Below, piece after piece: positions 1-10,472 of a stretch of DNA of 64,000 nt. The position numbers and the translations under genes were made by a program. Origin of the DNA: Gammaproteobacteria bacterium. GTDB taxonomy: Bacteria > Pseudomonadota > Gammaproteobacteria > JAJPIJ01. The notes under the pieces are model-generated. The model was not told the DNA's origin. It made no database searches and saw only the letters and a list, made by a program, of their open reading frames with translations. The DNA is taken from positions 1 to 64,000 of the forward strand of contig JAJPIJ010000028.1 of assembly GCA_021324815.1 (NCBI GenBank), read 5' to 3'. Positions within the stretch are counted from its first letter, which is position 1. Each line of letters starts with the position of its first letter.

Positions 1-52
1 CCTTGAACTGATCGCCGTATCTCGCCACCTTGCGAGGTCCTGCTCTTGCCAT
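1..52 (-). CDS. IS3-family transposase OrfA, N-terminal start only (runs off the left edge)
   Basis: Reading leftward from an ATG at 52-50 gives MARAGPRKVARYGDQFK before the window ends. This resembles the N-terminus of the OrfA (helix-turn-helix) subunit of IS3-family transposases, which often open MARxGPRKxxRYSxEFK. A GGAGG ribosome binding site lies on the minus strand at 63-59, six bases from the ATG. Only 17 codons are visible, so the family call rests on a short match. Confidence 0.55.
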   Translation of the reverse strand, partial: MARAGPRKVARYGDQFK

Positions 53-113
53 CTCACACCTCCGAGCTCGTTAGCCCAGGGTGTCAACTAATTCGGGGGA
101 AGTTTGGACTCCA
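1..113 (-). mobile_element. Left-edge IS3-like element, 5' end
   Basis: The transposase start at 52-1 is preceded by about 60 non-coding bases that look like an IS leader. The minus-strand sequence from about 113 begins TGGAGTCCAAACTTCCCCCG, resembling an IS3-type terminal inverted repeat with a TG end. The exact boundary is inferred; the other end of the element is outside the window, so neither the partner repeat nor a target duplication can be seen. Confidence 0.4.
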
Positions 114-114
114 T

Positions 115-399
115 GGTGTTGAACAGGAGCGTTATCTCTGCGGCTGGTTACGAATGATTTACCAACGCTACGGCACAAACCCTAACAACCCCGCATCCTT
201 ACGAAAATTTGTCTCAGACGCTCTCACCGTTGCCGGGATACCGCATCCCGACATAGCCAAGCATCCAGTCCGGCTCGACGAATGGATTTACACACCGGTA
301 GAAATGCTTGACCCAGACGAACACGAAATGGCGGCGGAAGAGGCGATGACGCTGCTTGCCAAACACGCAAATTGGCCCCGTAACGGGGGTGAAGCATAA
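115..399 (+). CDS. Hypothetical protein, 5' end apparently cut by the IS
   Basis: The frame is open from 46, but residues encoded before about 113 fall in the putative IS end and read as non-protein. From 115 the translation looks genuine (VEQERYLCGWLRMIYQRYG, then LRKFVSDALTVAGIPHPDIA). Internal ATG 154 is the first Met in the likely real portion. About 65 bases separate it from the AlpA-like gene, so it probably belongs to the same accessory cassette. No family is recognised. It is either a 5'-truncated gene or a short gene starting at 154. Confidence 0.45.
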   Translation, partial: GVEQERYLCGWLRMIYQRYGTNPNNPASLRKFVSDALTVAGIPHPDIAKHPVRLDEWIYTPVEMLDPDEHEMAAEEAMTLLAKHANWPRNGGEA

Positions 400-464
400 G
401 ACGTTCCCGAGTCAACATTGCGCTCCATAAGCCGTGGCGGTATCGGGCGTAAAGGAGGCAGAGC

Positions 465-662
465 ATGGCGAAAATCCTTCTCCGGCGTAAGCAGGTTCAA
501 GAGCGCGTCAACCTTTCCCGCAGTGAGTTGTACAGGCTAATGGCGCTCAACCAATTCCCAAAATCCGTCCCGCTCGGTGAGCGAGCCGTCGCTTGGGATT
601 CGGACGAAATCGAGGCGTGGATTCAAGCTCGTATTGATGCGCGGGGGAAACGAGCGGCTTGA
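465..662 (+). CDS. AlpA-type helix-turn-helix regulator / excisionase
   Basis: This 65-residue protein has the AlpA/MerR-like winged-helix pattern: KILLRRKQVQERVNLSRSELYRLM followed by FPKSVPLGERAVAWDSDEIEAWI. The aromatic GxRxVxW...E(I/V)xxWI core is what the family uses to bind DNA. AlpA proteins typically activate integrase or excision genes of prophages and integrative islands. A strong site, AAAGGAGG, precedes the ATG. The gene abuts the DUF3631 gene (stop TGA directly followed by ATG at 663), so the two are co-translated. Confidence 0.85.
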   Translation: MAKILLRRKQVQERVNLSRSELYRLMALNQFPKSVPLGERAVAWDSDEIEAWIQARIDARGKRAA

Positions 663-2132
663 ATGGACGCACAGATTGCCTCTGACTCGTTACTGAGATA
701 TGGCGGTGAAGTTTTGGAGTTCACGCCGAACGCCGCGCCGCAACGCCTGGCGGCGCTGTCTCCGCTGGAGTACGACCGCTGCCGCCAGAAGGAAGCGGAG
801 GCGCTGGGCGTGCGGGTCATTACGCTGGATGCTGAAGTTGAGCGCGCGCGTAAACAGCTGGAGACAGGGCAGAGACAGGCGGCTATTTTCACCGCGCCCG
901 AACCGTGGCCGGAAGCCGTGGACGGCGCCTCGCTGTTAACCGAGTGCGCGGGTACCATTAACCGCTACGTGGCGTTGCCTGAGGGTGCGGCGGACGTGGC
1001 AGCGCTGTGGATCGCGCACGCGCATTGCTTTAACGCCTGTCAGCATACTCCGCGCCTGAACATCACCGCGCCGGAAAAAGGTTGTGGCAAAACTTTGTTT
1101 CTTGACGTGCTTCATGTGTTGGCTCCCAAGGCCATCCGCACGGAGAACATAACAACCGCCGTGCTGTTTCGTATTGTCGACAGGGAGACGCCCACCCTGT
1201 TGATCGATGAGTACGATTCGTTTCTCACTGAAAATGAGGAACTGCGCGGGGCATTGAACGCCGGGCACAAGCGCGGCGGCTGCATCATGCGCTGCGAGGG
1301 TGACAACAACGAAGTCAAAATCTTCAAGACATTCGCGCCCGTGGCGCTGGCCGGTATTCGTTCACTGCCCGGCACGCTAGCGGATCGCTCCATCATCATC
1401 CGCATGCAGCGGATCGCCCCCGGAGAAAAACGCCAGCCTTTTGATTCGCGGCGGGTGGAACATGAGACGGCGGCGTTGTGCCGGAAGCTGGCGCGGTTTG
1501 CACTGGATAACCTCTCTACGCTGGAGAACTGCGATCCGAAACTGCCGGAGGGCGCGGTCAATCGCATCGCTGACAACTGGCGCCCGCTGTTCGCCATCGC
1601 GGAGGTTGCCGGCGGCGAGTGGCCGGAGCGAGTGCGCCGGGCATATGAGTTGCTGGCGAAGCCTGACGATGACGCCGAGTCTTTGGGCGTGTTGTTGCTA
1701 GCCGACATGCGCGCGCTGTTCCATGAACGGGGCGACAGACTGCTATCAGCCGATGTGGTGGACGCCTTGGGCAAGAAGGAGGAAAGGCCGTGGCCGGAAC
1801 TCCGGAACGGGAGGCCGATCACGGCGCGGCAGCTTGCGGCGCTGCTGAAGCGCTTTGGGATCAGACCCACCACCCTGCGCGCCGGCGATGACCGAGGGAA
1901 GGGGTACGTGTTGGACGACTTCCGGGACGTCTTCGCTCGCTACCTGCCGGAGACAGGGGGTTTCGATCCGTGCATCCGTAACAACATAAGCGGGGCGCGG
2001 GTTTCAGGCCAATTACGATCCGTGACAGCCGAGGACACCGTCACGGATCGAAAACCCCCGGAAACCGCGCCAGATATGGATTGTCACGGATGTACGGATC
2101 GAAAACCCCTAGCCTGGTGGGTGAGGCTATGA
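663..2132 (+). CDS. DUF3631 P-loop protein of an integrative element
   Basis: The 489-residue protein carries a Walker A-like loop (TAPEKGCGKTLFLDVL, about residues 137-152), a Walker B-like segment (PTLLIDEYD) and an arginine-finger-like stretch (LADRSIIIRMQR). This is the layout of DUF3631 proteins, which sit in the primase/helicase position of phage-satellite and genomic-island replication cassettes. The N-terminus has no obvious primase domain, so the element may rely on a separate primase or on the host. The last 60 residues are low in conservation and are encoded by DNA with an internal repeat (CGGATCGAAAACCCC twice, near 2044 and 2095). The gene overlaps the next one by ATGA. Confidence 0.8.
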   Translation: MDAQIASDSLLRYGGEVLEFTPNAAPQRLAALSPLEYDRCRQKEAEALGVRVITLDAEVERARKQLETGQRQAAIFTAPEPWPEAVDGASLLTECAGTINRYVALPEGAADVAALWIAHAHCFNACQHTPRLNITAPEKGCGKTLFLDVLHVLAPKAIRTENITTAVLFRIVDRETPTLLIDEYDSFLTENEELRGALNAGHKRGGCIMRCEGDNNEVKIFKTFAPVALAGIRSLPGTLADRSIIIRMQRIAPGEKRQPFDSRRVEHETAALCRKLARFALDNLSTLENCDPKLPEGAVNRIADNWRPLFAIAEVAGGEWPERVRRAYELLAKPDDDAESLGVLLLADMRALFHERGDRLLSADVVDALGKKEERPWPELRNGRPITARQLAALLKRFGIRPTTLRAGDDRGKGYVLDDFRDVFARYLPETGGFDPCIRNNISGARVSGQLRSVTAEDTVTDRKPPETAPDMDCHGCTDRKPLAWWVRL

Positions 2133-2452
2133 GCGCATCGCATGTACTGCGGCAGGTCCAGCAAGCCGGTGGAACCTTGAGGCTGGATAGTGGCGGCTTG
2201 CTGTTGCTGGCGGAGCATGAATTACCGGCGGAACTGGTGGGGCTGGTGCGCTCCCACAAGCCGGAGATCATCAGCACACTGGAAATAGTTACCCGCGCCT
2301 GTAGTGGTCTGCCCCTGTCACCGAATCGCTTCATGGCCGAGATGACGGCGGAGGACATCGCCGACATAGAGGCCGGGTATATTCCAGTGGAGACGTTGCG
2401 GGCTTACGCGGAGAGCATTTCAATGCGCCAGGTCGGGAGACCGATAAATTGA
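2129..2452 (+). CDS. TubC N-terminal docking-like domain protein
   Basis: The start is the ATG at 2129, which overlaps the stop of the DUF3631 gene as ATGA. The 107-residue product begins with VLRQVQQAGGTLRLDSGG, then LLLLAEHELPAELVGLVRSHKPEIISTL. This is the small alpha/beta fold called TubC-N docking domain, also found in many small proteins of integrative elements. There its role is unknown; it probably mediates protein-protein contact. The C-terminal part is acidic and unassigned. An upstream in-frame ATG at 2081 would overlap the previous gene by more than 50 bases and is less likely. Confidence 0.65.
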   Translation: MSASHVLRQVQQAGGTLRLDSGGLLLLAEHELPAELVGLVRSHKPEIISTLEIVTRACSGLPLSPNRFMAEMTAEDIADIEAGYIPVETLRAYAESISMRQVGRPIN

Positions 2453-2859
2453 ATGGTACGGAACGCGATGAGCGTGGGCGTTATCTGAAGGGCGTCAGCG
2501 GTAATCCGGCGGGCCGGCCTCGCGGCAGTAAGAACCGGCCGGTGCTCTCCCCCTCGCAATGGGTCACCAAGCACTGGAAGCGGGCTTACAGCGAGGCACT
2601 CATCACGCACGGCAACGCCGAGGCCGCGCTCTTTGAACTGGCCGCGCTCTACGCACAGCATCACCCGCTAACTACACCGCCAGGCCTATGCCCCGCCTGC
2701 CACCGGCCGCTCAAGCTCACGTCCACAAGCCTGTACGATTGCGCCGTAATCGCCGCCCCTGCTGTGCTGACACATGCCCGCTGCGAGCCAATCTTCACTC
2801 AGGGCCGACTCGTCGAGGCCGCCTCCGCACTCAGGAAAATACTTGAGCTTGCAGGCTAG
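2449..2859 (+). CDS. DUF5681-like mobile-element protein
   Basis: The start is a TTG at 2449 overlapping the previous stop as TTGA, so it is probably translationally coupled. The N-terminal motif YLKGVSGNPAGRPRGSKN is the hallmark of DUF5681-type proteins encoded in prophages and genomic islands, often near terminase or transfer genes. The middle holds a possible zinc site (CPACHRPLKL, with further Cys downstream at YDCAVI and ARCEP). The 136-residue protein ends the visible cassette. The function is not established. An ATG at 2453 is out of frame. Confidence 0.65.
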   Translation: MNGTERDERGRYLKGVSGNPAGRPRGSKNRPVLSPSQWVTKHWKRAYSEALITHGNAEAALFELAALYAQHHPLTTPPGLCPACHRPLKLTSTSLYDCAVIAAPAVLTHARCEPIFTQGRLVEAASALRKILELAG

Positions 2860-3370
2860 CGCGCACGAAGGGCTGTGCACACCCGACGCTGTTTGTGCGA
2901 GGGCGTTGCGTGCAGACTGCCTGTAGCTTCCTGATGTAGTAACCACTAACCCGCGGTCACGAGATTGACCGCGCCGGGATTTAGCGCACGCGGCCGCACC
3001 AAAACCGGTTCTTTTTACACGTAATTCCTCGCGCTTGCCGCTGAAATTAAGGCCGTGGGCAGCGCAGAGCCGGCGAGATGCCGACGGGCAACGCGGCTAG
3101 CGGTGCATGCATAACCCGCTATGTGAGTGTTGCCTCCCTTTGTGGCAGGATAGAGCAGAGATACCTCGAAAATCCTAAATGAGGACGGGGTCATTGTAAC
3201 CTTCTCCCAGCCAAGCGGCCCGGGGAGACCGGGGAGATTTGTACCTGTTCCTTAAGTTCTACAAGAAAGGCCACGCGAAGGGCAGAGCGGCCAGTGATCC
3301 TAGTCCGCGACTTAATAAAGTTGCCAGACGTGGGGGAAGAATCTACTAAACGAGTAGTGGAGTGCAGCCT
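2860..3370. other. Non-coding stretch right of the accessory cassette
   Basis: No convincing coding region is seen on either strand across about 510 bases. A perfect 8-bp hairpin (CGCGGTCA / TGACCGCG, 2952-2973) could end transcription of the cassette, although it lacks a T run. The composition is less GC-rich toward 3130-3360. The right attachment site of the element could lie here, but without the left end the core repeat cannot be identified. Confidence 0.5.
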
Positions 3371-3775
3371 ATGACAAGAAAACCGAGAGTAATGATCTTG
3401 CTAGCGGCAGTGACTTTCATTGGTGTTGGAAACTTCGCTCATGGAGCCTGCCCTTATGATGCAGAATGCTTGGATAATCCATATGGGGCCGGAAACCCTT
3501 ATAAACCTGATGGCCTCATGAATCCTTACAGCCGGTATGGAAGCCGATACAGCAATCAATCATGGACGAATCCCTACGCTACCGATGCTCCGAAAATTTT
3601 CGATAGTCAAGGGAATTACCACGGAAGGTTTAGCACGAACCCCTACGATCCCGACTCTACATCGAATCCGTATGGACGGTATGGAAACCCCTATTCTCCA
3701 GATAGTCTGAATAATCCTTACGGCGCAGGGAATCCTTACTCAACCGAACAATATGAGGTTGTTCCATCTGAATGA
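3371..3775 (+). CDS. Secreted NPY-repeat protein
   Basis: The ATG at 3371 follows GGAG by nine bases; an in-frame GTG at 3362 is less likely. Residues 1-25 form a signal peptide (MILLAAVTFIGVGNFAHGA, with cleavage before CPYD). The mature protein is almost entirely built of Asn-Pro-Tyr units: nine NPY triplets, in blocks such as NPYGAGNPY and GRYGNPYSPDSLNNPYG. Small exported proteins of this kind occur in many proteobacteria without a known role. The repeat suggests an extended, Tyr-rich structural or surface protein. The gene stands alone, and its DNA is noticeably less GC-rich than the core genes downstream. Confidence 0.7.
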   Translation: MTRKPRVMILLAAVTFIGVGNFAHGACPYDAECLDNPYGAGNPYKPDGLMNPYSRYGSRYSNQSWTNPYATDAPKIFDSQGNYHGRFSTNPYDPDSTSNPYGRYGNPYSPDSLNNPYGAGNPYSTEQYEVVPSE

Positions 3776-3796
3776 ACAGCGAGATTACCTTAATTC

Positions 3797-3830
3797 TTTT
3801 TGGGGCGGGGAAGGTGTTGTGGACTTCAAT
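3797..3830 (+). repeat. Direct repeat copy 1 (34 bp)
   Basis: Begins TTTTTGGGGCGGGGAA and ends GTGGAC(T)TCAAT. The copy at 4090-4123 matches it at 29 of 34 positions in the same orientation. The two copies are 293 bases apart and bracket the palindrome at 3850-3933. Confidence 0.75.
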
Positions 3831-3849
3831 CTATTCGAATACACCGGTT

Positions 3850-3933
3850 GATGGTCATTACCGCCGAAGGTGGCCACCAACCCCGAAGATGTCCACACAA
3901 AAACGGTGGCCACCTTGGGCAAAGTTGACCATC
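3850..3933. repeat. Symmetrical inverted repeat, IS21-terminus-like
   Basis: The left arm is GATGGTCA, nine unpaired bases, then AAGGTGGCCACC. The right arm is GGTGGCCACCTT, nine bases, then TGACCATC. The arms are both 29 bases long around a 26-base loop, so 20 bases per arm pair exactly in register. Multiple GGTGGCCA-type repeats are reminiscent of the repeated ends of IS21-family elements, but no transposase is present, so this is at most a relic. Confidence 0.6.
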
Positions 3934-4089
3934 CCAACTCCGCCCTTCGCCGTGAAGCGTGAGCCGCGGACAACACAACCCGCACCCCACAACCATTCGG
4001 CAGTCTAAAAAACGCCCCTTTTCTCGATTAGTGAAAGCCACAGACGGCGTTTAAAGTCGAAACCAGCCCCAGTTATTGCACCAATTGAA

Positions 4090-4123
4090 TTTTTGGGGCG
4101 GGGAAATGGTGGTGGACATCAAT
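4090..4123 (+). repeat. Direct repeat copy 2 (34 bp)
   Basis: Second copy of the TTTTTGGGGCGGGGAA repeat, 29 of 34 bases identical to 3797-3830. Confidence 0.75.
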
Positions 4124-4201
4124 ATGACTCCCCGCATCCCCAACATAAGTTGTTACTGCGCACGGCGCAGACTTCGCGTACGGCGGTGTAACTCGCTCAA
4201 G

Positions 4202-4225
4202 TGACGGTAACTTTGACGGTAACCG
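4202..4225 (+). promoter_or_regulatory. Tandem 10-mer, possible operator upstream of the ClC gene
   Basis: TGACGGTAAC occurs at 4202-4211 and again at 4214-4223, a 12-base period. A partial copy (CACGGTAAC) recurs just inside the ClC gene near 4402. Tandem direct repeats in an upstream region suggest a binding site, but no regulator can be named. Confidence 0.3.
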
Positions 4226-4354
4226 TGGAACCGGCTATCATTGAAAGTGAACGGATTCAATCAATTGCGCGAGACATTCGAGTCCGCGCGCCGCACCATT
4301 TGAACAGGCGATTGATTCCCAACTGGCACCCTGATCGACCACGCGGAAGCGACG

Positions 4355-6211
4355 ATGAATTCAACGCGGACGGACGCCGTGCCACGGCACTTGGGCGACT
4401 TCACGGTAACTACAAGAACATTCCTGATTGTCCTGCTGGCCTGCGCCGCGGGCATCATCAGCACGGCGGCGGCATGGGCATTGCTGAAGCTCATCGGCCT
4501 CATCACCAACCTGGCCTTCTATCAGCGTTTCAACTTCGCCCTGGTCGCGCCCGGCGCCGATCATCACAGCCCGGCGCTGATCCTCCTGCTGCCCATCCTC
4601 GGCGGCCTGCTGGTCGGCTTGATGGCGCGCTACGGCAGCGAGGTCATCCGCGGGCACGGCATGCCCGAGACGATTTACTCCATCCTCCGCGACGGCAGCA
4701 AGGTGAAGCCGCGCGTCGCCATGCTCAAGCCCCTCTCCGCCGCAATCACCATCGGCACGGGCGGGCCGTTCGGCGCCGAGGGCCCCATCATCATGACCGG
4801 CGGCGCCTTCGGATCGCTGCTGGCCCAGTTCCTCAAGCTGACCGCGGACGAACGCAAGACGCTGCTGGTCGCCGGCGCCGTGGCGGGCATGACGGCGACG
4901 TTCAACGCGCCCTTCGCGTCGCTGCTGCTCGCGGTCGAGCTGCTGCTGTTCGAGTGGCGCCCCCGCAGCTTTCTGCCGGTGGCCTTCGCGGTGTGCGTGG
5001 CGGCGATACTCCGCGTACCCCTGATCGGCAGCGCGCCCATCTTCCCGGTCGGCACCCTGGCGCCGGCGTTGACGCCCGTCGAATATCTGCTCTGCGTCGT
5101 GTGCGGTGGCGCGGGCGCCCTCCTTGCGTTGGTGGCGACGCGCCTGATCTATTTTTCCGAGGACATGTTCATGAAGCTGCCCATCCACTGGATGTGGTGG
5201 CCCGCGATCGGCGGCCTGATCATCGGCGTCGGTGGTTTGTTCGAGCCGCGCGCGCTGGGCGTCGGTTACGACGTCATACAGGTTTTCCTCAACGGCACGG
5301 CGACGGTCCCGCTGATTACCGGCATTCTGGTCGTCAAGACGCTCATCTGGTCCCTGTCGCTGGGTTCCGGCACGTCCGGCGGCGTGCTGGCACCGATTGT
5401 CATGCTGGGCGCGGCCCTGGGCAGCCTGCTGGCGCTCATATTTCCACACGTCGCGCCGGGCTTCTGGGCGCTGGTTTGCCTGGCGGCCGTCATCGGGGGC
5501 GCGATGCGGCTGCCGCTGACCGGCGTGATCTTCGCCCTGGAACTCACGCACGACTGGACGGCGCTGCTTCCACTGGTGATCTCAGCCACCACGGCCTTCG
5601 GCATCTCCGCTCTCCTGCTCAAGCGATCGGTGCTGACTGAAAAAGTGGCCCGAAAGGGTTTCCATCTCACGCGGGAGTATTCCATCGATCCCCTCGAGGT
5701 CATGCTGGTGCGCGAGGTGATGCGCCGCAACTTCACCAGCTTCCGGAGAGGAACGTCGCTGAACGATGCAATCACCACCTTCACGGCGGCGCGGCGGGAA
5801 AGGAGCGACAGTGAAAATCCACAGCGCATTTACCCGATCCTGGACGGCCAGGGGCGGCTGGCGGGCATCGTCACGCGCCGCGACATGCTGGATGCCACCT
5901 TGTCGGAAACCGCGGCGCCGGATGTCTCGATCGATGAAATGATGGTGAGAACCCCGACCGTCTGCCATCCCGACATGACACTGCGCGAGGTCTCCTACCT
6001 GCTGGCGGAAAACCGGGTTTCCTGCGTCCCGGTGGTGGATCGTTCCGCTCGGGAAAAGATCGTCGGCATACTGACGCTAGAAGACCTGCTGCAGGGCCGC
6101 CTGCACGACCTTCAGGAGGAGCGCGTGCGGGAACGGGTGCTTCACGTGCGTCGCATTTTCCGCCTGCCGCGCGGCGGACGGCGGACCGGAAGCCGGTACT
6201 CCACTTCCTAG
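4355..6211 (+). CDS. ClC-type chloride channel/antiporter with tandem CBS domains
   Basis: The 618-residue inner-membrane protein has about ten hydrophobic segments and the ClC signatures: GHGMP in the GSGxP position (near residue 90), GTGGPFGAEGP containing the gating glutamate, and GSGTSGGVLAP for the GxFxP filter region. After about residue 430 it turns soluble and contains two CBS motifs (ILDGQGRLAGIVTRRDML and VPVVDRSAREKIVGILTLEDLL), which usually sense adenine nucleotides or ionic strength. It probably exchanges Cl- for H+ or passes Cl-. Gly-His replaces the usual Gly-Ser in the first filter loop, so anion selectivity may differ. It is not in an obvious operon. Confidence 0.9.
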   Translation: MNSTRTDAVPRHLGDFTVTTRTFLIVLLACAAGIISTAAAWALLKLIGLITNLAFYQRFNFALVAPGADHHSPALILLLPILGGLLVGLMARYGSEVIRGHGMPETIYSILRDGSKVKPRVAMLKPLSAAITIGTGGPFGAEGPIIMTGGAFGSLLAQFLKLTADERKTLLVAGAVAGMTATFNAPFASLLLAVELLLFEWRPRSFLPVAFAVCVAAILRVPLIGSAPIFPVGTLAPALTPVEYLLCVVCGGAGALLALVATRLIYFSEDMFMKLPIHWMWWPAIGGLIIGVGGLFEPRALGVGYDVIQVFLNGTATVPLITGILVVKTLIWSLSLGSGTSGGVLAPIVMLGAALGSLLALIFPHVAPGFWALVCLAAVIGGAMRLPLTGVIFALELTHDWTALLPLVISATTAFGISALLLKRSVLTEKVARKGFHLTREYSIDPLEVMLVREVMRRNFTSFRRGTSLNDAITTFTAARRERSDSENPQRIYPILDGQGRLAGIVTRRDMLDATLSETAAPDVSIDEMMVRTPTVCHPDMTLREVSYLLAENRVSCVPVVDRSAREKIVGILTLEDLLQGRLHDLQEERVRERVLHVRRIFRLPRGGRRTGSRYSTS

Positions 6212-6363
6212 GGCGGCCCGCGGTTCCCCCCTGCGCGCCGGCCGGCGTTTGTATCAGGAACTTTTATCCGGCCTTTCGCACCAAAGGTCGAGTCGGGCGG
6301 GGTCATCCGATGGAACCGTCGAAAGCCCCAAGACAAGCCAATGCGCCGGAGGGAAAACACGCC

Positions 6364-6723
6364 ATGCGCCGTTTGAACCATCTCTTGCTCGTATCGTTGA
6401 CCGTCCTGCCCGCCGTCTCCGAGGGGAAATCCACCATGACGGACACCACCGGAATCCTGTACCTTTCCTGCCTCTACGACAAGCCCGCGGAGCTCAGCGG
6501 CACCTATGCCCAGCTCATCGTCGATCAAGCCAAAAACACAATCACCACCGGCCTGGACTGCGCCACGTCCGAGGTGCGCATCAATCCCGCCCGCATCTCG
6601 TTCAAATGCGGGGATCAGCTGGATATGACCGTTGACCGCCTGAACGGGCACTTCCTGGCGACCGTCAAGCCGCAGGGCAAGGCGAGCGGCTTTTGCACCA
6701 AGCAGAAGGGCCCGCGATTTTAA
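6364..6723 (+). CDS. Exported hypothetical protein
   Basis: From the ATG at 6364 the product is 119 residues with an N-terminal signal sequence (MRRLNHLLLVSLTVLPAVSEG). The mature part has paired cysteines (YLSCLYD, LDCATSE, FKCGDQ, GFCTKQ), which suggests disulfides and a periplasmic location. No family is recognised. An in-frame ATG at 6310 would add 18 polar residues before the signal and is rejected. Confidence 0.6.
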   Translation: MRRLNHLLLVSLTVLPAVSEGKSTMTDTTGILYLSCLYDKPAELSGTYAQLIVDQAKNTITTGLDCATSEVRINPARISFKCGDQLDMTVDRLNGHFLATVKPQGKASGFCTKQKGPRF

Positions 6724-6954
6724 GTGGCGCGGGGGGACCCACCCGGCTGAACAGCCGGCAAATTAATGCAAAACGCCACAAGGCGTCCCGGATTCGTGGC
6801 AAAGTAATGTCGAGCGCGGCAGTTTTGCGCCGTTCAGTTGGCGTTTAAAATACCCGGAGCGTAATATCGCCCAATCCCGGAATCAGGAGCGGCTCTCCCG
6901 GTCTAATTTTGAGAGACCGCCCCTCGATGAACGAAACGAGCGCCGGAGGTGCCC
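6724..6954. other. Intergenic region with inverted repeats
   Basis: This 230-base gap contains GCAAAAC near 6770 matched by GTTTTGC near 6823, and GCCAC...GTGGC pairs around 6775-6805, so the transcript could fold. The sequence does not fit the c-di-GMP (GEMM) riboswitch consensus well enough to call. It probably contains the promoter for the next gene. Confidence 0.35.
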
Positions 6955-7485
6955 ATGCGAACACTGCCGCTGACCGCCCTTCCCTTCCTGCTGCTGTTTT
7001 CCGTCGCCGCCCACGCCGAGGTGTTCAAATGCACCATCAATGGCAAGGTGGAATACCGGGATTCGCCGTGCGCCGGAAGCGCCACGCAGGAAGTGATTGA
7101 ATTCAAGAGCGACGTGCTGAACGCCCCTCCGACGGATGCCGCGGCCGTCCTCGCGCAATTGCGCCAGGCCGATCAGGCGCTGTCAGATCGACTGCAGCAG
7201 GAACGCCTGCAGCGCATGCAGATCGCCGCCCGGCAGGCGCAGTTGGATCAGCAGGAACGCATCGCCATGGAGACAAGGGAGACGGAGGAAAATGATTACG
7301 CCGTGCCGCTGGTCGGCGGGTACTGGCCGTTCGTGGCCTTCAACCACCACCATTTCGGCAGGCGCTTTCACAACATGGGGAACTTCCCGCCGCACCAATT
7401 CCGCCATCACGGCGGCAACCGCAATTCATTCGGCGCCCGTGCGCCGATGCGCGCCGGCTCGTTCGCCGCCAACCTCAACTTTTGA
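6955..7485 (+). CDS. DUF4124-domain exported protein
   Basis: The ATG at 6955 is preferred over GTG 6949 because GGAGG (6945-6949) is then correctly spaced. After a signal peptide (LPLTALPFLLLFSVAAHAE) comes the DUF4124 core: VFKCTINGKVEYRDSPC. A Gln/Arg-rich coiled-coil follows (QADQALSDRLQQERLQRMQ), and then a His/Asn/Phe-rich tail (FNHHHFGRRFHNMGNFPPHQFRHHG, given here in parts). DUF4124 proteins are periplasmic and of unknown function. A second member lies at 33604. The His-rich tail might bind metal, which is inference. Confidence 0.75.
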   Translation: MRTLPLTALPFLLLFSVAAHAEVFKCTINGKVEYRDSPCAGSATQEVIEFKSDVLNAPPTDAAAVLAQLRQADQALSDRLQQERLQRMQIAARQAQLDQQERIAMETRETEENDYAVPLVGGYWPFVAFNHHHFGRRFHNMGNFPPHQFRHHGGNRNSFGARAPMRAGSFAANLNF

Positions 7486-7541
7486 TTTGTGTCACCGGCG
7501 CCCGCGCGGCTTGATTATTGAGTATCAGCCATTTAAAGAAA

Positions 7542-7606
7542 CCGTTCGTGCCGGGCCTTCGACAGGCCCAGGCCAAGGTACGCTACGCGCATCGAAGCAC
7601 GAACGG
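7542..7606. repeat. Intergenic inverted repeat with TTCGACAGGC core
   Basis: CCGTTCGTGC at 7542-7551 is the exact reverse complement of GCACGAACGG at 7597-7606. The left arm is followed by CGGGCCTTCGACAGGCCCAGG. This is the style of the short palindromic repeats (CGTTCGTG...TTCGACAGGC) scattered between genes in many proteobacterial genomes. It lies between two same-strand genes. Confidence 0.6.
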
Positions 7607-7695
7607 GATGTTCAGTGCCTGGAAGCGCCCTTCGATGCCACCAACCCCAGAAATATTGGCGGGAGTCTCCCCTGCTTATCCATGAGGAATCGCAC

Positions 7696-8043
7696 ATGAC
7701 CAAGAAAGCGGCCATCGTACTTGCGTTGATCATGCTGCTCATCGTCGGATGGGTGCTGTTCCTCGACGGCGGCGCCACCCAAATCATCATCAACGGCGAG
7801 GAGCTGACCGGACCGCTCAAGGGCATAGTTGGAGCGGGCGGCCTGATCGTCGCCTCGATCGCGCTTTTCTGCATGGCGATTTTCCTGGTCTTTGTGTTCG
7901 CGGGGATCGGCATTTTCGTGCTGGGCGGCTTCATCGTCATCGGACTGATCATGGCCTGGCTGACGTTCCCGATCCTGCTGTTCCTGCTGCTGCCGCTCGC
8001 CATCGTGTGGGTATTCGTCGCCTTTGTGCGGCATGGATCATGA
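7696..8043 (+). CDS. Small integral membrane protein, hypothetical
   Basis: From the ATG at 7696 the product is 115 residues, with an N-terminal membrane anchor (AAIVLALIMLLIVGWVLFL) and two or three further hydrophobic segments after a short polar loop (DGGATQIIINGEELTGPLKG). The C-terminus is basic (FVRHGS). The loop probably faces the periplasm. No named family is recognised. An alternative upstream start would read through the palindromic repeat region and is unlikely. Confidence 0.6.
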   Translation: MTKKAAIVLALIMLLIVGWVLFLDGGATQIIINGEELTGPLKGIVGAGGLIVASIALFCMAIFLVFVFAGIGIFVLGGFIVIGLIMAWLTFPILLFLLLPLAIVWVFVAFVRHGS

Positions 8044-8109
8044 CCACAAAGGAGGCGAAGGATTGAATTTTTCTCCGCTGCTCTGGCAATCGGTAGTGCG
8101 TCCCCTGCG

Positions 8110-8253
8110 TTACGTTTCCTTCACTGCAATGGCTTGTACAACTGCGCTGAGGCCGGTGTGGTAAATGCCCTCCACCACATTTCGTTCAAGCTCGATGAGA
8201 TGGACAAGATTCAATCCCGCCAACTCAAGAATCAATGATTTGGGATTCCCCAT
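8110..8253 (-). CDS. Possible 47-residue small protein
   Basis: An ATG at 8253 (minus strand) is preceded by AGGAG about eight bases upstream and opens a 47-codon frame: MGNPKSLILELAGLNLVHLI, then ELERNVVEGIYHTGLSAVVQ, ending VKET. The amino-acid composition is protein-like and amphipathic. It follows the ParB-like gene on the same strand by 75 bases. It was too short for a routine search threshold, and no homologue is known to me, so it could be chance. Confidence 0.3.
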   Translation of the reverse strand: MGNPKSLILELAGLNLVHLIELERNVVEGIYHTGLSAVVQAIAVKET

Positions 8254-8328
8254 CGCTCCCGCTCCTCGGAATAACAAAATGACCCGGTATTGCCTGTTCC
8301 AGCCCGCGGTTCCCGCAGCGGCAGACCA

Positions 8329-8700
8329 TCAGACAATCTTGCAGGGAATCAAGGCATCCTCGTCGAACGAATACACGGAACACATGCGATGGTAGCCGTC
8401 CGCGATGATGACCTTGCCGTTGTTGCCATCTCGGATCAGGAGCAACGGAGAAAGCTTCTCGCCCGAAAGAATCTTTTTTCGATCTTTCTCCACGTGTGAA
8501 TTGCTGATCCCCAGCAGTGACAGCCCCGAAGCCCTGAAAATGTCCTTGGCCTTGAACTCTGTCACCGGCGCTTTCTTCAACTTCTGCACATAACCGGCCG
8601 CGGTTTTCTGATCGTAAATCAGGCTTAAAAATGACTCCGCCGCCGGATAGTCGTGTTCTTCCGGCTCGTCCAGCCATTTGATTCTCGCGTTTTTGCCCAT
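8329..8700 (-). CDS. ParB/sulfiredoxin-fold protein, hypothetical
   Basis: This 123-residue soluble protein contains SPLLLIRDGNNGKVIIADGYHR, given here as SPLLLIRDG and VIIADGYHR. The (I/V)xDGxHR box is characteristic of the ParB/Srx nuclease-like fold. Stand-alone copies are not chromosome-partition proteins; some are nucleases or kinase-like, and most are unknown. It starts three bases after the upstream gene's stop (8704), so the two genes form an operon and probably act together. Confidence 0.6.
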   Translation of the reverse strand: MGKNARIKWLDEPEEHDYPAAESFLSLIYDQKTAAGYVQKLKKAPVTEFKAKDIFRASGLSLLGISNSHVEKDRKKILSGEKLSPLLLIRDGNNGKVIIADGYHRMCSVYSFDEDALIPCKIV

Positions 8701-8703
8701 GGA

Positions 8704-9333
8704 TCACCGGCCCGCGGCGCGAGTGTCGGCCTCCTGTTGTTTCGTATCTTGTTCATGCGCCAGCGCGTCGCGCAACTGTAAGCGCCCCGCGTGATACCCG
8801 GCGGCATCGCCGTAGTCGAGGAATTGCGCATAGCGGGCATGCGTGCCCAGCACCTTGCGGGCGTGCTTGATCGGGCACCAGTACTGCTCGGTGCGGGCCG
8901 CAATCTCGCGGACATAGGCAATGAGGCCGTTGGCATAGCCGCAATACTCGCAGTGCAGCCGTTCCATGACGTTGAGGTAGGCCAGATGATGCCGGTCGAT
9001 GACGATGTAGTCGGCGCGCCGCACCTTGCCGATGCGATACAGCGGGAAGCAGGCGGCCTGGTAAATCGTCACGCAAATATCAAGGAAGACAAGCGGCAGC
9101 GCCATGCCGTAGATGAAGGGCGCGGAGAGCAAGTTCTGCGGGCGGCTTTCGGTGAACCATTTCAGCAATCCGGTCTTGAGCCGGCTGTGCGCCTCGCGTA
9201 TGCCGTCCTCGAATTCGACGCGCTTGCCGCGGATGCGGAAGTGGATTCGCTCCTGCTGCTCGTGCAACGCCGTGCGCAGCTCGTCCTCAATGGCATTCAT
9301 CTCCTCCAACAACTGCCGGATGTGCTCGTTCAT
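8704..9333 (-). CDS. Conserved hypothetical membrane-associated protein with a CxxC motif
   Basis: The start is set at the second Met (9333, MNEHIRQLLEEMNAIEDEL); the first possible is 9369. The N-terminal half is a charged coiled coil (EEMNAIEDELRTALHEQQER). A hydrophobic segment follows (APFIYGMALPLVFLDICVTI), then a soluble region with RLHCEYCGYANGL and RTEQYWCPIKHA, whose three cysteines could bind zinc. The family is widespread in proteobacteria as an uncharacterised protein. It forms a two-gene unit with the ParB-like gene downstream. Confidence 0.6.
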   Translation of the reverse strand: MNEHIRQLLEEMNAIEDELRTALHEQQERIHFRIRGKRVEFEDGIREAHSRLKTGLLKWFTESRPQNLLSAPFIYGMALPLVFLDICVTIYQAACFPLYRIGKVRRADYIVIDRHHLAYLNVMERLHCEYCGYANGLIAYVREIAARTEQYWCPIKHARKVLGTHARYAQFLDYGDAAGYHAGRLQLRDALAHEQDTKQQEADTRAAGR

Positions 9334-9416
9334 GGGGGCCTCGGGCGGATGGATGGGCGCCGGGCGCATGATGACTCATTTCCCGGCCGGCGTCTCGCCG
9401 CCCGCCCGCGCCTGCC

Positions 9417-10472
9417 GTGACCGCAAAGTTAAAGTGCTTTCTCAAGGTTGATTCCGGCGATGACTCGGGGCAGACTTGCGCCCTACAAACAACAACGCCC
9501 CCGGGAGTCAAACGCGTGCGCCGCAACGACTTCGACGTCACGGACAAGATCCGCACCACCGATCCGGCCGGGGTCGCCGCCGAGGTGATGCGCCTGTACC
9601 ACGGCCTCTATCCCGCCGGCAGGTCCCGGCCGATGGAACACGCCTTCGAGGACGTGACCCTGATGTATCGGGGCAGGCATCCGGACTATCACCCCTGCGA
9701 CACCGAATACCACGACATCCAGCACGTGCTCGACGTGACGCTGGCGATGGCGCGCCTGCTCGACGGCTACGAGCGCGGCCGGCGGGGCGAGGCGCCGCTG
9801 CCGCCGGATGTTTTCAGCGTCGGCGTGGTGACCGCCCTGTTTCATGACTGCGGCTACCTGCGGCGCCGCCATGACCACCGGCACCTCCACGGCGGGGAAT
9901 ACACCCTGACGCACGTCTCGCGCGGCTCGCATTTCCTGCGCGATTACCTGCCGCGCATCGGCCTGAGGAAGCACGCGGCGGCGGCCGCGCAGCTGGTGCA
10001 CTTCACCGGCTACGAGCGCCCGGTCGACACCATCCGCCTCGCCGACCCGCTGCTGCGCCGGGTCGGCGAGATCCTCGGCACCGCCGACATCATCGCGCAG
10101 ATGTCCGATCGCTGTTACCTCGAGAAGTGCCGCGACCGCCTGTACCCGGAATTCGTGCTGGGCGGGCTCGCCCGCCGCAAAATGCCCGACGGGCAGACCG
10201 TCACGATGTTCGAATCCGGCGACGATCTGGTGCGCAAGACCCCGGGATTCTATGCCAACGCCTCCAAGCGCCTCGACCAGCAGCTGCACCGCGCCTACCG
10301 CTACGCGGAGCACCACTTCGACGGCCGGAGGAATTTCTACGTCGAACAGATGAACAAGAACGTGAGCTATGCGGAGATTGTGGCGGAGGTCATGACCGAC
10401 AATTCCCCGGGGGGTCTGCTGCGCCGCCGTCCGCCCCGCACCGTGCAGCCGGCCCTGCACGCGCAGGCCTAG
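9417..10472 (+). CDS. HD-domain metal-dependent phosphohydrolase
   Basis: The protein has the HD-superfamily metal ligands in order: YHDIQHVLDVT (first His), ALFHDCGYL (the HD pair), and downstream HLHGGEY and VHFTGYE. The domain covers about residues 80-260 of 351. HD proteins hydrolyse phosphomonoesters or phosphodiesters, often of nucleotides; there is no GYP motif, so a c-di-GMP role is not implied. The start is uncertain: GTG 9417 is the longest, and the first 35 residues look poorly conserved, so a GTG near 9516 is possible. It ends at a strong bidirectional terminator. Confidence 0.75.
   Translation: MTAKLKCFLKVDSGDDSGQTCALQTTTPPGVKRVRRNDFDVTDKIRTTDPAGVAAEVMRLYHGLYPAGRSRPMEHAFEDVTLMYRGRHPDYHPCDTEYHDIQHVLDVTLAMARLLDGYERGRRGEAPLPPDVFSVGVVTALFHDCGYLRRRHDHRHLHGGEYTLTHVSRGSHFLRDYLPRIGLRKHAAAAAQLVHFTGYERPVDTIRLADPLLRRVGEILGTADIIAQMSDRCYLEKCRDRLYPEFVLGGLARRKMPDGQTVTMFESGDDLVRKTPGFYANASKRLDQQLHRAYRYAEHHFDGRRNFYVEQMNKNVSYAEIVAEVMTDNSPGGLLRRRPPRTVQPALHAQA

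Follow-up and report, generated by a model that had tools for sequence, protein, structure and literature searches.

A tRNA-Thr-integrated element with a probable replication origin inside its DUF3631 helicase gene

To which mobile element do the opening genes of this stretch belong, and where does its replication begin? The stretch, hereafter the window, comprises 64,000 nucleotides from a Gammaproteobacteria bacterium (genome G000, contig C26, positions 1 to 64,000), and base 1 of the window is base 1 of the contig. A sequence-only reading had placed the edge of a small integrative cassette here, with genes for an AlpA-like regulator, a DUF3631 protein, a TubC-like protein and a DUF5681-like protein joined by direct abutment or ATGA/TTGA overlaps, and the open reading frames (ORFs) bear out this arrangement. 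Our analysis indicates that these genes very probably belong to an element of approximately 6.8 kb integrated at a tRNA-Thr gene, with an initiator-bound origin inside the DUF3631 gene. It is likely, though with a little less assurance, that in many bacterial groups the DUF3631 origin is an intragenic inverted array of iterons with a recurrent geometry, and that wing residues 404, 411 and 412 set the dinucleotide NN of the iteron TGTNNCGG.

The last ~180 bp of the DUF3631 gene encode a tail predicted to be disordered and hold inverted copies of TGTNNCGG. They lie in a long inverted repeat at the 3' end of the gene, a feature not described in the earlier reading, which is 72% matched over about 156 bp and 90% matched in its 30-nt outer arms. 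Relative to the RYL motif, exact iterons are found at offsets -29, -73 and +135, and a copy with one mismatch is found at +92; only these three copies are exact in the window. The features of the gene are as follows.

663 to 2132, plus strand: DUF3631 (RepAM-type) AAA+ initiator helicase, 489 aa, no fused primase (Pfam, predicted fold)
1872 to 1898, plus strand: codons 404-412, the predicted wing, with iteron-covarying positions 404, 411 and 412 (predicted structure, covariation)
1955 to 2110, strand not assigned: inverted repeat with iterons, the proposed origin (arms 1955-1984/2081-2110 and 2000-2026/2040-2066)
1976 to 1983, minus strand: iteron TGTTACGG (motif count)
2020 to 2027, minus strand: iteron TGTCACGG (motif count)
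2039 to 2046, plus strand: degenerate iteron CGTCACGG with one mismatch, opposite 2020-2027 about 2033 (read from the sequence)
2082 to 2089, plus strand: iteron TGTCACGG, opposite 1976-1983 about 2032.5 (motif count)

The 3' ends of DUF3631 genes in relatives hold repeats with other letters, of which TGTNNCGG is the common form. In a first set of 82 complete genes, on which the motif was picked by eye, the tails contained 134 copies of TGTNNCGG, compared with the 10.5 that the remainder of those loci would predict. When the codons were redrawn for the same protein in 58 of the 61 tails of at least 20 aa (those kept after an 80% identity filter), 112 copies were observed against 21.2 in the redraws (maximum 35 of 200). 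As an independent test of the motif, we analyzed a fresh set from GTDB genomes, consisting of the best 80 of 290 homologous loci; 78 of the 80 genes gave 62 tails of at least 40 aa, of which 51 were kept after a 70% identity filter. These 51 tails held 131 copies in 12,099 bp, compared with 367 in the 724,572 bp of the rest of the loci, a density 21 times that of the flanks, and the codon redraw gave a mean of 26.8 (maximum 40 of 200) against 129 observed.

The dinucleotide NN tends to be the same within an element and different between elements. It was equal in 134/204 within-element pairs of the fresh set versus 27.5 after shuffling (maximum 45 of 1000), and in 134/209 pairs of the first set versus 20.7 (maximum 34). 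Spacings recur as well: in the fresh set, the commonest were 8, 43 and 51 on the same strand and 62, 70, 113 and 121 in inverted orientation. Nested-pair geometry was inspected in 20 chosen elements with one mismatch allowed per copy, and three nested inverted pairs about one centre were observed in 9 of them, typically at offsets of -22, -30, -73, +92, +135 and +143 after the RYL motif or at block-shifted positions. One locus inspection covered 28 of 79 loci. Among 17 loci from a survey of the phylum, 12 were inspected for iterons, leaving out that of the own genome and four broken ones; five (L112, L113, L114, L116 and L118) had at least three motif copies, L117 had one, L119, L121, L122 and the truncated L124 had none, and the ORF filter yielded no gene in L120 and L123. 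Iteron-bearing loci are labelled Proteobacteria, Planctomycetota, Acidobacteriota, Gemmatimonadetes and others, although most are metagenome-assembled genomes (MAGs) in which binning errors are possible.

Individual tails also depart from the common pattern. The tail of L113 carries two iteron arrays (offsets 21-134 and 211-332) that differ in their dinucleotides, suggestive of a duplicated origin. The more distant tails of L089 and L108 have a different inverted repeat, GGNGTTAGG, at the same place, and the motif family is thus wider than TGTNNCGG. Six loci (L023, L061, L063, L067, L073 and L102) have tails of 16-18 aa with no iteron pair in the tail; their origin, if any, would lie elsewhere.

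If the DUF3631 protein reads these repeats, its residues should carry a trace of their letters. Covariation with NN was computed for 64 of 73 elements with a majority NN, all less than 75% identical, over 379 alignment columns. Columns 404, 411 and 412 covaried with NN (z of 9.5, 7.0 and 7.0), and the next column reached 3.7. In 300 label shuffles over all columns the highest z was 5.1, compared with 9.1, 6.7 and 6.5 for the three columns in that run. The three positions map to the final beta-hairpin predicted for the C-terminal domain (strands 403-407 and 410-416). When only the genome half is used, their ranks are 2, 3 and 1 among 378 columns. With triplets taken from the viral half, NN was predicted for 19.5 of 38 genome elements versus 4.7 after shuffling (maximum 12.6), and among partners less than 50% identical the triplet predicted 28.9/64, compared with 9/64 for the nearest whole-core neighbour. 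In these elements, a Val at 411 is mostly paired with A as the first variable base, a Thr with T or G and an Asn with C; for the second base, Pro at 412 is paired with G and Ala, in most cases, with A. Such covariation is hard to explain unless the helicase itself binds the repeats.

Several observations weigh against an intragenic origin of shared geometry and a residue code for it. Inverted pairs of exact copies about one centre occurred in just 8 of 28 testable genome loci (random mean 1.0, maximum 5); given this modest count, we rely on density, spacing, coherence and covariation. Fewer than two exact copies were present in 31/58 tails of at least 20 aa and in 19/51 tails of at least 40 aa, 16 of the 78 genome-set genes have a tail shorter than 40 aa, and, taken gene by gene, 31/54 tails beat their codon redraws at 1 in 100. 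The motif itself was selected by eye from the first set, which leaves the genome set as the independent test. In the window, a centre-finding script favoured a single pair at 107.5, versus ~86 from the long inverted repeat. The viral half alone ranks columns 404, 411 and 412 as 1, 3 and 43 of 340; the viral-to-genome prediction is not fully blind, as the three columns were picked on all 64 elements; and the triplet of the window, T-R-G, is unique in the set, making the code uncheckable on the window itself. Finally, a fold search of the helicase model hardly covered residues beyond 337, and the evidence for a winged domain is its predicted secondary structure.

The tail that the iteron DNA encodes may have a function of its own, one that involves the TubC-like protein encoded just downstream:

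2129 to 2452, plus strand: TubC_N-like small protein with a predicted beta-hairpin docking fold, ATGA overlap with the helicase gene (ORF, Pfam, model)

The protein scores 14.4 bits against TubC_N (PF18563), below the cut-off of 26. Its predicted model best matches solved docking domains of nonribosomal peptide synthetases (NRPSs) with a Foldseek probability of 1.00 and an E-value of 0.07, weak by E-value; the top three matches have a probability of 1.00, TMt of 0.68-0.72 and E-values of 0.07-0.15, which are not significant. NRPS beta-hairpin docking domains bind a short C-terminal motif of their partner (PMC13324335). Unlike those domains, the protein here stands alone beside a replication helicase and scores below the Pfam cut-off. 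In the genome set, the last helicase residue is I, L, V or F in 19/19 loci with an adjacent TubC-like gene versus 21/59 without one (Fisher 2.5e-7), and when the comparison is restricted to tails of at least 40 aa, a hydrophobic end without TubC is found in 18/43 (8e-6). In the first set, the helicase end was hydrophobic in 10/10 genes with an adjacent TubC-like gene and in 6/72 without, the 72 including the window and L040, in which the first-set TubC model detected nothing. The TubC-like gene overlaps the helicase gene by 4 nt in 13/19 loci. We propose that the TubC-like protein docks on the hydrophobic end of the helicase tail. A different partner, such as a host primase, a single-stranded DNA-binding protein or a phage protein, with the hydrophobic C terminus otherwise caused, deserves serious if less than even weight: the C-terminal half of the TubC-like protein is variable and helical, and docking domains can also bind folded domains (PMC13324335), yet against it stand the association between tail ending and TubC-like gene in both sets and the 4-nt overlaps. 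The TubC-like protein, which had been described as having no known role in such elements, is likely to have one as a recurrent neighbour of the initiator.

What purpose would repeats bound by the helicase serve? The helicase matches DUF3631 (PF12307) at 159.2 bits against a cut-off of 24 (E 1.6e-46), its sole domain above cut-off, and DUF3631 corresponds to RepAM, the replication initiator of the actinomycete integrative element pMEA300 (PMC3218068). The predicted model (pLDDT, the per-residue confidence score, 85.8; residues 433-489 scored very low and were taken to be disordered) matched MCM helicases and PriRep1 of Staphylococcus aureus pathogenicity islands (SaPIs; 7pds, TM score 0.42) over an AAA+ core, whereas a sequence-profile search of solved structures gave no match at E-values up to 10. 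Covariation alone is no proof that the repeats are an origin; we read them as one because the family is a replication initiator (PMC3218068) and because of the analogous initiators of SaPIs, the staphylococcal cassette SCCmec and Gram-negative phage-inducible chromosomal islands (PICIs), in which the iteron origin, known or proposed, directly follows the 3' end of the initiator gene (PMC7581432, PMC6092414). It is improbable that the repeats are instead sites at which the initiator, or AlpA, regulates the operon. AlpA is a DNA-binding protein, and covariation reveals which protein binds rather than why; nevertheless, replication initiation is the known function of the family, the sites occupy the 3' end of the initiator gene, near the origin positions of SaPI Rep, SCCmec Cch2 and PICIs, and, against AlpA, the covarying residues are in the helicase, the protein for which alone covariation was computed.

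We give still less credence to the possibility that RepAM-type proteins start rolling-circle replication and that the inverted repeat is a nicking site. The published prediction stands against our reading, as RepAM proteins are there predicted to be rolling-circle initiators with pC194-like nick sites (PMC3218068). However, the protein is predicted to fold as an AAA+ helicase like MCM and PriRep1, the arrays are multi-copy and inverted with element-specific letters rather than one fixed nick sequence, and no nuclease domain was found among the Pfam matches of the protein. The AAA+ fold and the multi-site inverted array together argue for a helicase-loading origin over a rolling-circle one. Least probable of all, that the tail repeats are mere protein low complexity in a decaying remnant without a working origin would suit the splitting of the element by an insertion sequence (IS) and its three exact iterons, but a protein sequence does not dictate inverted repeats, the sets as a whole hold far more sites than their codon redraws, none of the four core ORFs is disrupted and the same arrangement is found in many genomes.

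For the preferred reading, an origin bound by the DUF3631 protein within its own gene, we propose the following model. AlpA would aid the integrase in excising the element. The DUF3631 AAA+ helicase would bind, via its C-terminal domain, the inverted TGTNNCGG iterons in the 3' end of its own gene, assemble there, probably as two opposed rings, and open the DNA, and host primase and polymerase would copy the excised circle. The iteron DNA would double as codons for the disordered tail, with the hydrophobic C-terminal end of the tail docking the TubC-like protein, such that initiator, recognition site and partner may travel together as a 1.8-kb unit. If this is true, a single gene could reveal origin position, geometry and specificity across a large family of integrative elements and satellites; compatibility groups of DUF3631 elements could be predicted from sequence, and incompatibility, helper dependence and host range tested by gel-shift and plasmid assays. 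A tether with a docking motif for the TubC-like partner at its end would be encoded by the same DNA, which would provide a testable role for the enigmatic 'TubC docking' proteins found in such elements, and the published rolling-circle label of RepAM (PMC3218068) would be open to question.

Is the gene set part of an integrated element? The sequence-only reading saw neither an integrase nor a primase. The second part of that statement stands, with no primase between the AlpA stop at 662 and the helicase start at 663; the first does not, for a tyrosine integrase lies on another contig of the genome, C43 (locus L229). Since the window starts at base 1 of C26, the lack of a visible integrase was an assembly limit. 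Read in reverse, C43 carries tRNA-Thr(CGT) (2644-2719), the adjoining integrase (1266-2480; 404 aa, with Arm-DNA-bind_3, Phage_int_M and Phage_integrase domains), a Gp49 protein, an HTH_37 protein and an ORF that runs into an IS, and it starts with an end of the IS whose other end opens the window. A second attachment (att) copy lies at the opposite end of the element, at window positions 4277-4299, and matches the tRNA-Thr(CGT) 3' end (95.8% over 24 alignment columns, E 1.4e-5). In addition, paired TGACGGTAAC repeats at 4201-4223 match at every position (23/23) the pair located on C43 between the tRNA-Thr and integrase genes, and are likely to be integrase arm sites. The earlier placement at the edge of an integrative cassette is supported by these findings, although the element runs on to about 4299 rather than ending at 2859; without the IS, its length is 6,803 bp. 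The gene order on each contig, the integrase and both att copies are direct observations, and the remaining features are listed below.

1 to 106, strand not assigned: IS end, the other end being C43:1-30 (recurrence at C10)
107 to 399, plus strand: 3' part of gene X, cut by the IS; 5' part at C43:32-370, minus strand (ORFs, frame across GAC)
465 to 662, plus strand: AlpA-like regulator/excisionase (Pfam PF05930 Phage_AlpA 6.5e-20; PHROG 2790)
2449 to 2859, plus strand: DUF5681-like protein, TTGA overlap, TTG start (Pfam 29.0 bits vs cut-off 27.5)
3362 to 3775, plus strand: NPY-repeat protein with a signal-like N terminus, within the element (ORF)
4201 to 4223, plus strand: paired TGACGGTAAC repeats (identical to the C43 copies)
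4277 to 4299, plus strand: attR, copy of the tRNA-Thr(CGT) 3' end (alignment)
4355 to 6211, plus strand: ClC-type channel with CBS domains, chromosomal right flank (Pfam; 87% identical protein in G001)

The join between C43 and C26 through the IS is inferred from a target duplication, a reading frame and the att sites. Window positions 1-106 recur 106/106 at the end of contig C10, and the two sequences diverge from 107 on, which marks the edge of the IS end and agrees with the earlier placement of an IS just upstream, inside a small gene. That gene, X, is split: the frame is kept from C43 into window positions 107-399 across a 3-bp GAC duplication, and an ORF at 46-399 contains its 3' part; neither part had a Pfam match above cut-off. 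The duplications pair contig ends, GAC joining C43 to the start of C26 and TCA joining the end of C26 to C10. It counts against the 6.8-kb element that this join is based on 3 bp, a frame and att sites, not on reads. The IS terminal repeat occurs at seven places in the genome, including the start of C43 and the end of C26, and another IS end in the genome has a similar inverted repeat. The IS, which we take to be IS3-like, has an unassembled body, and a search of all contigs of the genome for PF01527 (IS transposase) gave no match. The same IS end, in at least four copies, breaks the genome assembly (L005 6641-6746, L229 1-30, L230 80-99 and L231 3526-3545).

With this join, the order would be tRNA-Thr, integrase, HigB/HigA-like pair, IS-split gene X, AlpA, DUF3631, TubC-like, DUF5681-like, cargo and attR. 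G001, a genome of the same genus, carries ahead of its ClC gene a copied tRNA-Thr 3' half and a piece of an integrase (Arm-DNA-bind_3), and thus the ClC flank looks like a used integration site. The G001 att sequence gave no match in G000 with up to three mismatches, because the tRNA-Thr sequences differ. Relatives of window DNA 1-9500 were sought in G001-G005, G007 and G010 and found only in G001, only for parts right of 4357. An Rfam scan of the window gave no match, and a motif scan of the window alone for a tRNA-type att site was abandoned, as GGTTCGANTCC matched at chance level; the att copy was found only once C43 had been located.

The DUF3631 gene occurs in 4/143 relatives and 14/398 genomes drawn from the phylum, the own genome counted in both, and the module is not fixed in the chromosome. 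The opposite picture, of genes fixed in relatives with no integrase or att site nearby, fails on both counts. A single-protein scan of the genome contigs for close DUF3631 relatives found none. Among the best 80 of 290 homologous loci, a tyrosine integrase lies on the same strand within 6 kb upstream in at least 44, an AlpA-like gene is present in at least 33 and an adjacent TubC-like gene in 19, as detected by our models; the integrase and AlpA counts are lower bounds, 23 of the 80 loci having less than 3 kb of upstream sequence. L155, labelled as a Magnetococcales MAG, has nearly the same minimal order (integrase, 374-aa protein, HTH_17 regulator, helicase, TubC-like) with no primase between regulator and helicase, and L130 has a separate Toprim protein in front. 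L037 and L042 run on into prohead protease and phage capsid genes, a continuation that resembles capsid-forming satellites. In L017 (G088:C9), the DUF3631 module is repeated in tandem over positions 1-3500 as several incomplete, degenerate copies.

How does the element compare with known systems? The pMEA300-type actinomycete elements share the Pfam family as replication initiator of an integrative element (PMC3218068). Actinomycete RepAM elements carry an FtsK-like Tra and sometimes a Prim-Pol, in contrast to the AlpA, TubC-like and DUF5681-like genes and lack of a primase here; no FtsK/SpoIIIE-type Tra, the hallmark of actinomycete integrative and conjugative elements, was found among the main ORFs tested on both contigs. 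Gram-negative PICIs and capsid-forming PICIs (cf-PICIs) have int, alpA and rep in one direction, att integration and an iteron origin at rep (PMC6092414). Their int, alpA, rep order is present here if C43 joins C26, whereas in PICIs the origin directly follows the 3' end of rep, around an AT-rich region, and the putative origin here, with its iterons, lies inside the coding sequence. In PICIs, rep is also accompanied by a pri gene or domain; the element here yielded no gene for a primase, terminase or capsid, and the main ORFs tested on both contigs included none for capsid or packaging proteins. The element is therefore PICI-like without being called a PICI, and cf-PICI identity was rejected. 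SaPI Rep/PriRep1 and SCCmec Cch2 are initiator helicases with a C-terminal domain that binds iterons directly downstream of the gene (PMC7581432) rather than within it, and PriRep1 shares the AAA+ core of the predicted DUF3631 model.

We found no published intragenic DUF3631 origin, in a literature coverage that leaves out most subscription journals and scarcely names DUF3631. As far as this literature shows, what is new is a geometry that recurs from group to group, a dinucleotide specific to each element and a residue code in the protein. In phage lambda, iterons lie within the initiator gene O, although O is not a helicase and belongs to another family than DUF3631. The pMEA300 origin was perhaps already placed within repAM, reportedly by te Poele et al.

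The AlpA-like protein falls in PHROG 2790, annotated as excisionase and transcriptional regulator, and its stop directly precedes the DUF3631 ATG (662/663). The DUF5681 match is just above cut-off, and in L205 and L185, too, a gene of this kind comes after the DUF3631 gene. The Gp49 (PF05973) and HTH_37 proteins encoded between integrase and gene X (C43 596-1215, minus strand), presumably HigB/HigA-like, are likely a toxin-antitoxin module that could stabilise the element. The secreted-looking NPY-repeat protein had no Pfam or PHROG match and may be cargo beside attR. The interval from this gene to attR also holds 29-nt arms, 79% matched, inverted around GGTGGCCACC (3850-3878/3905-3933), together with a 34-nt sequence, TTTTTGGGGCGGGGAA, repeated directly at 3797 and 4090.

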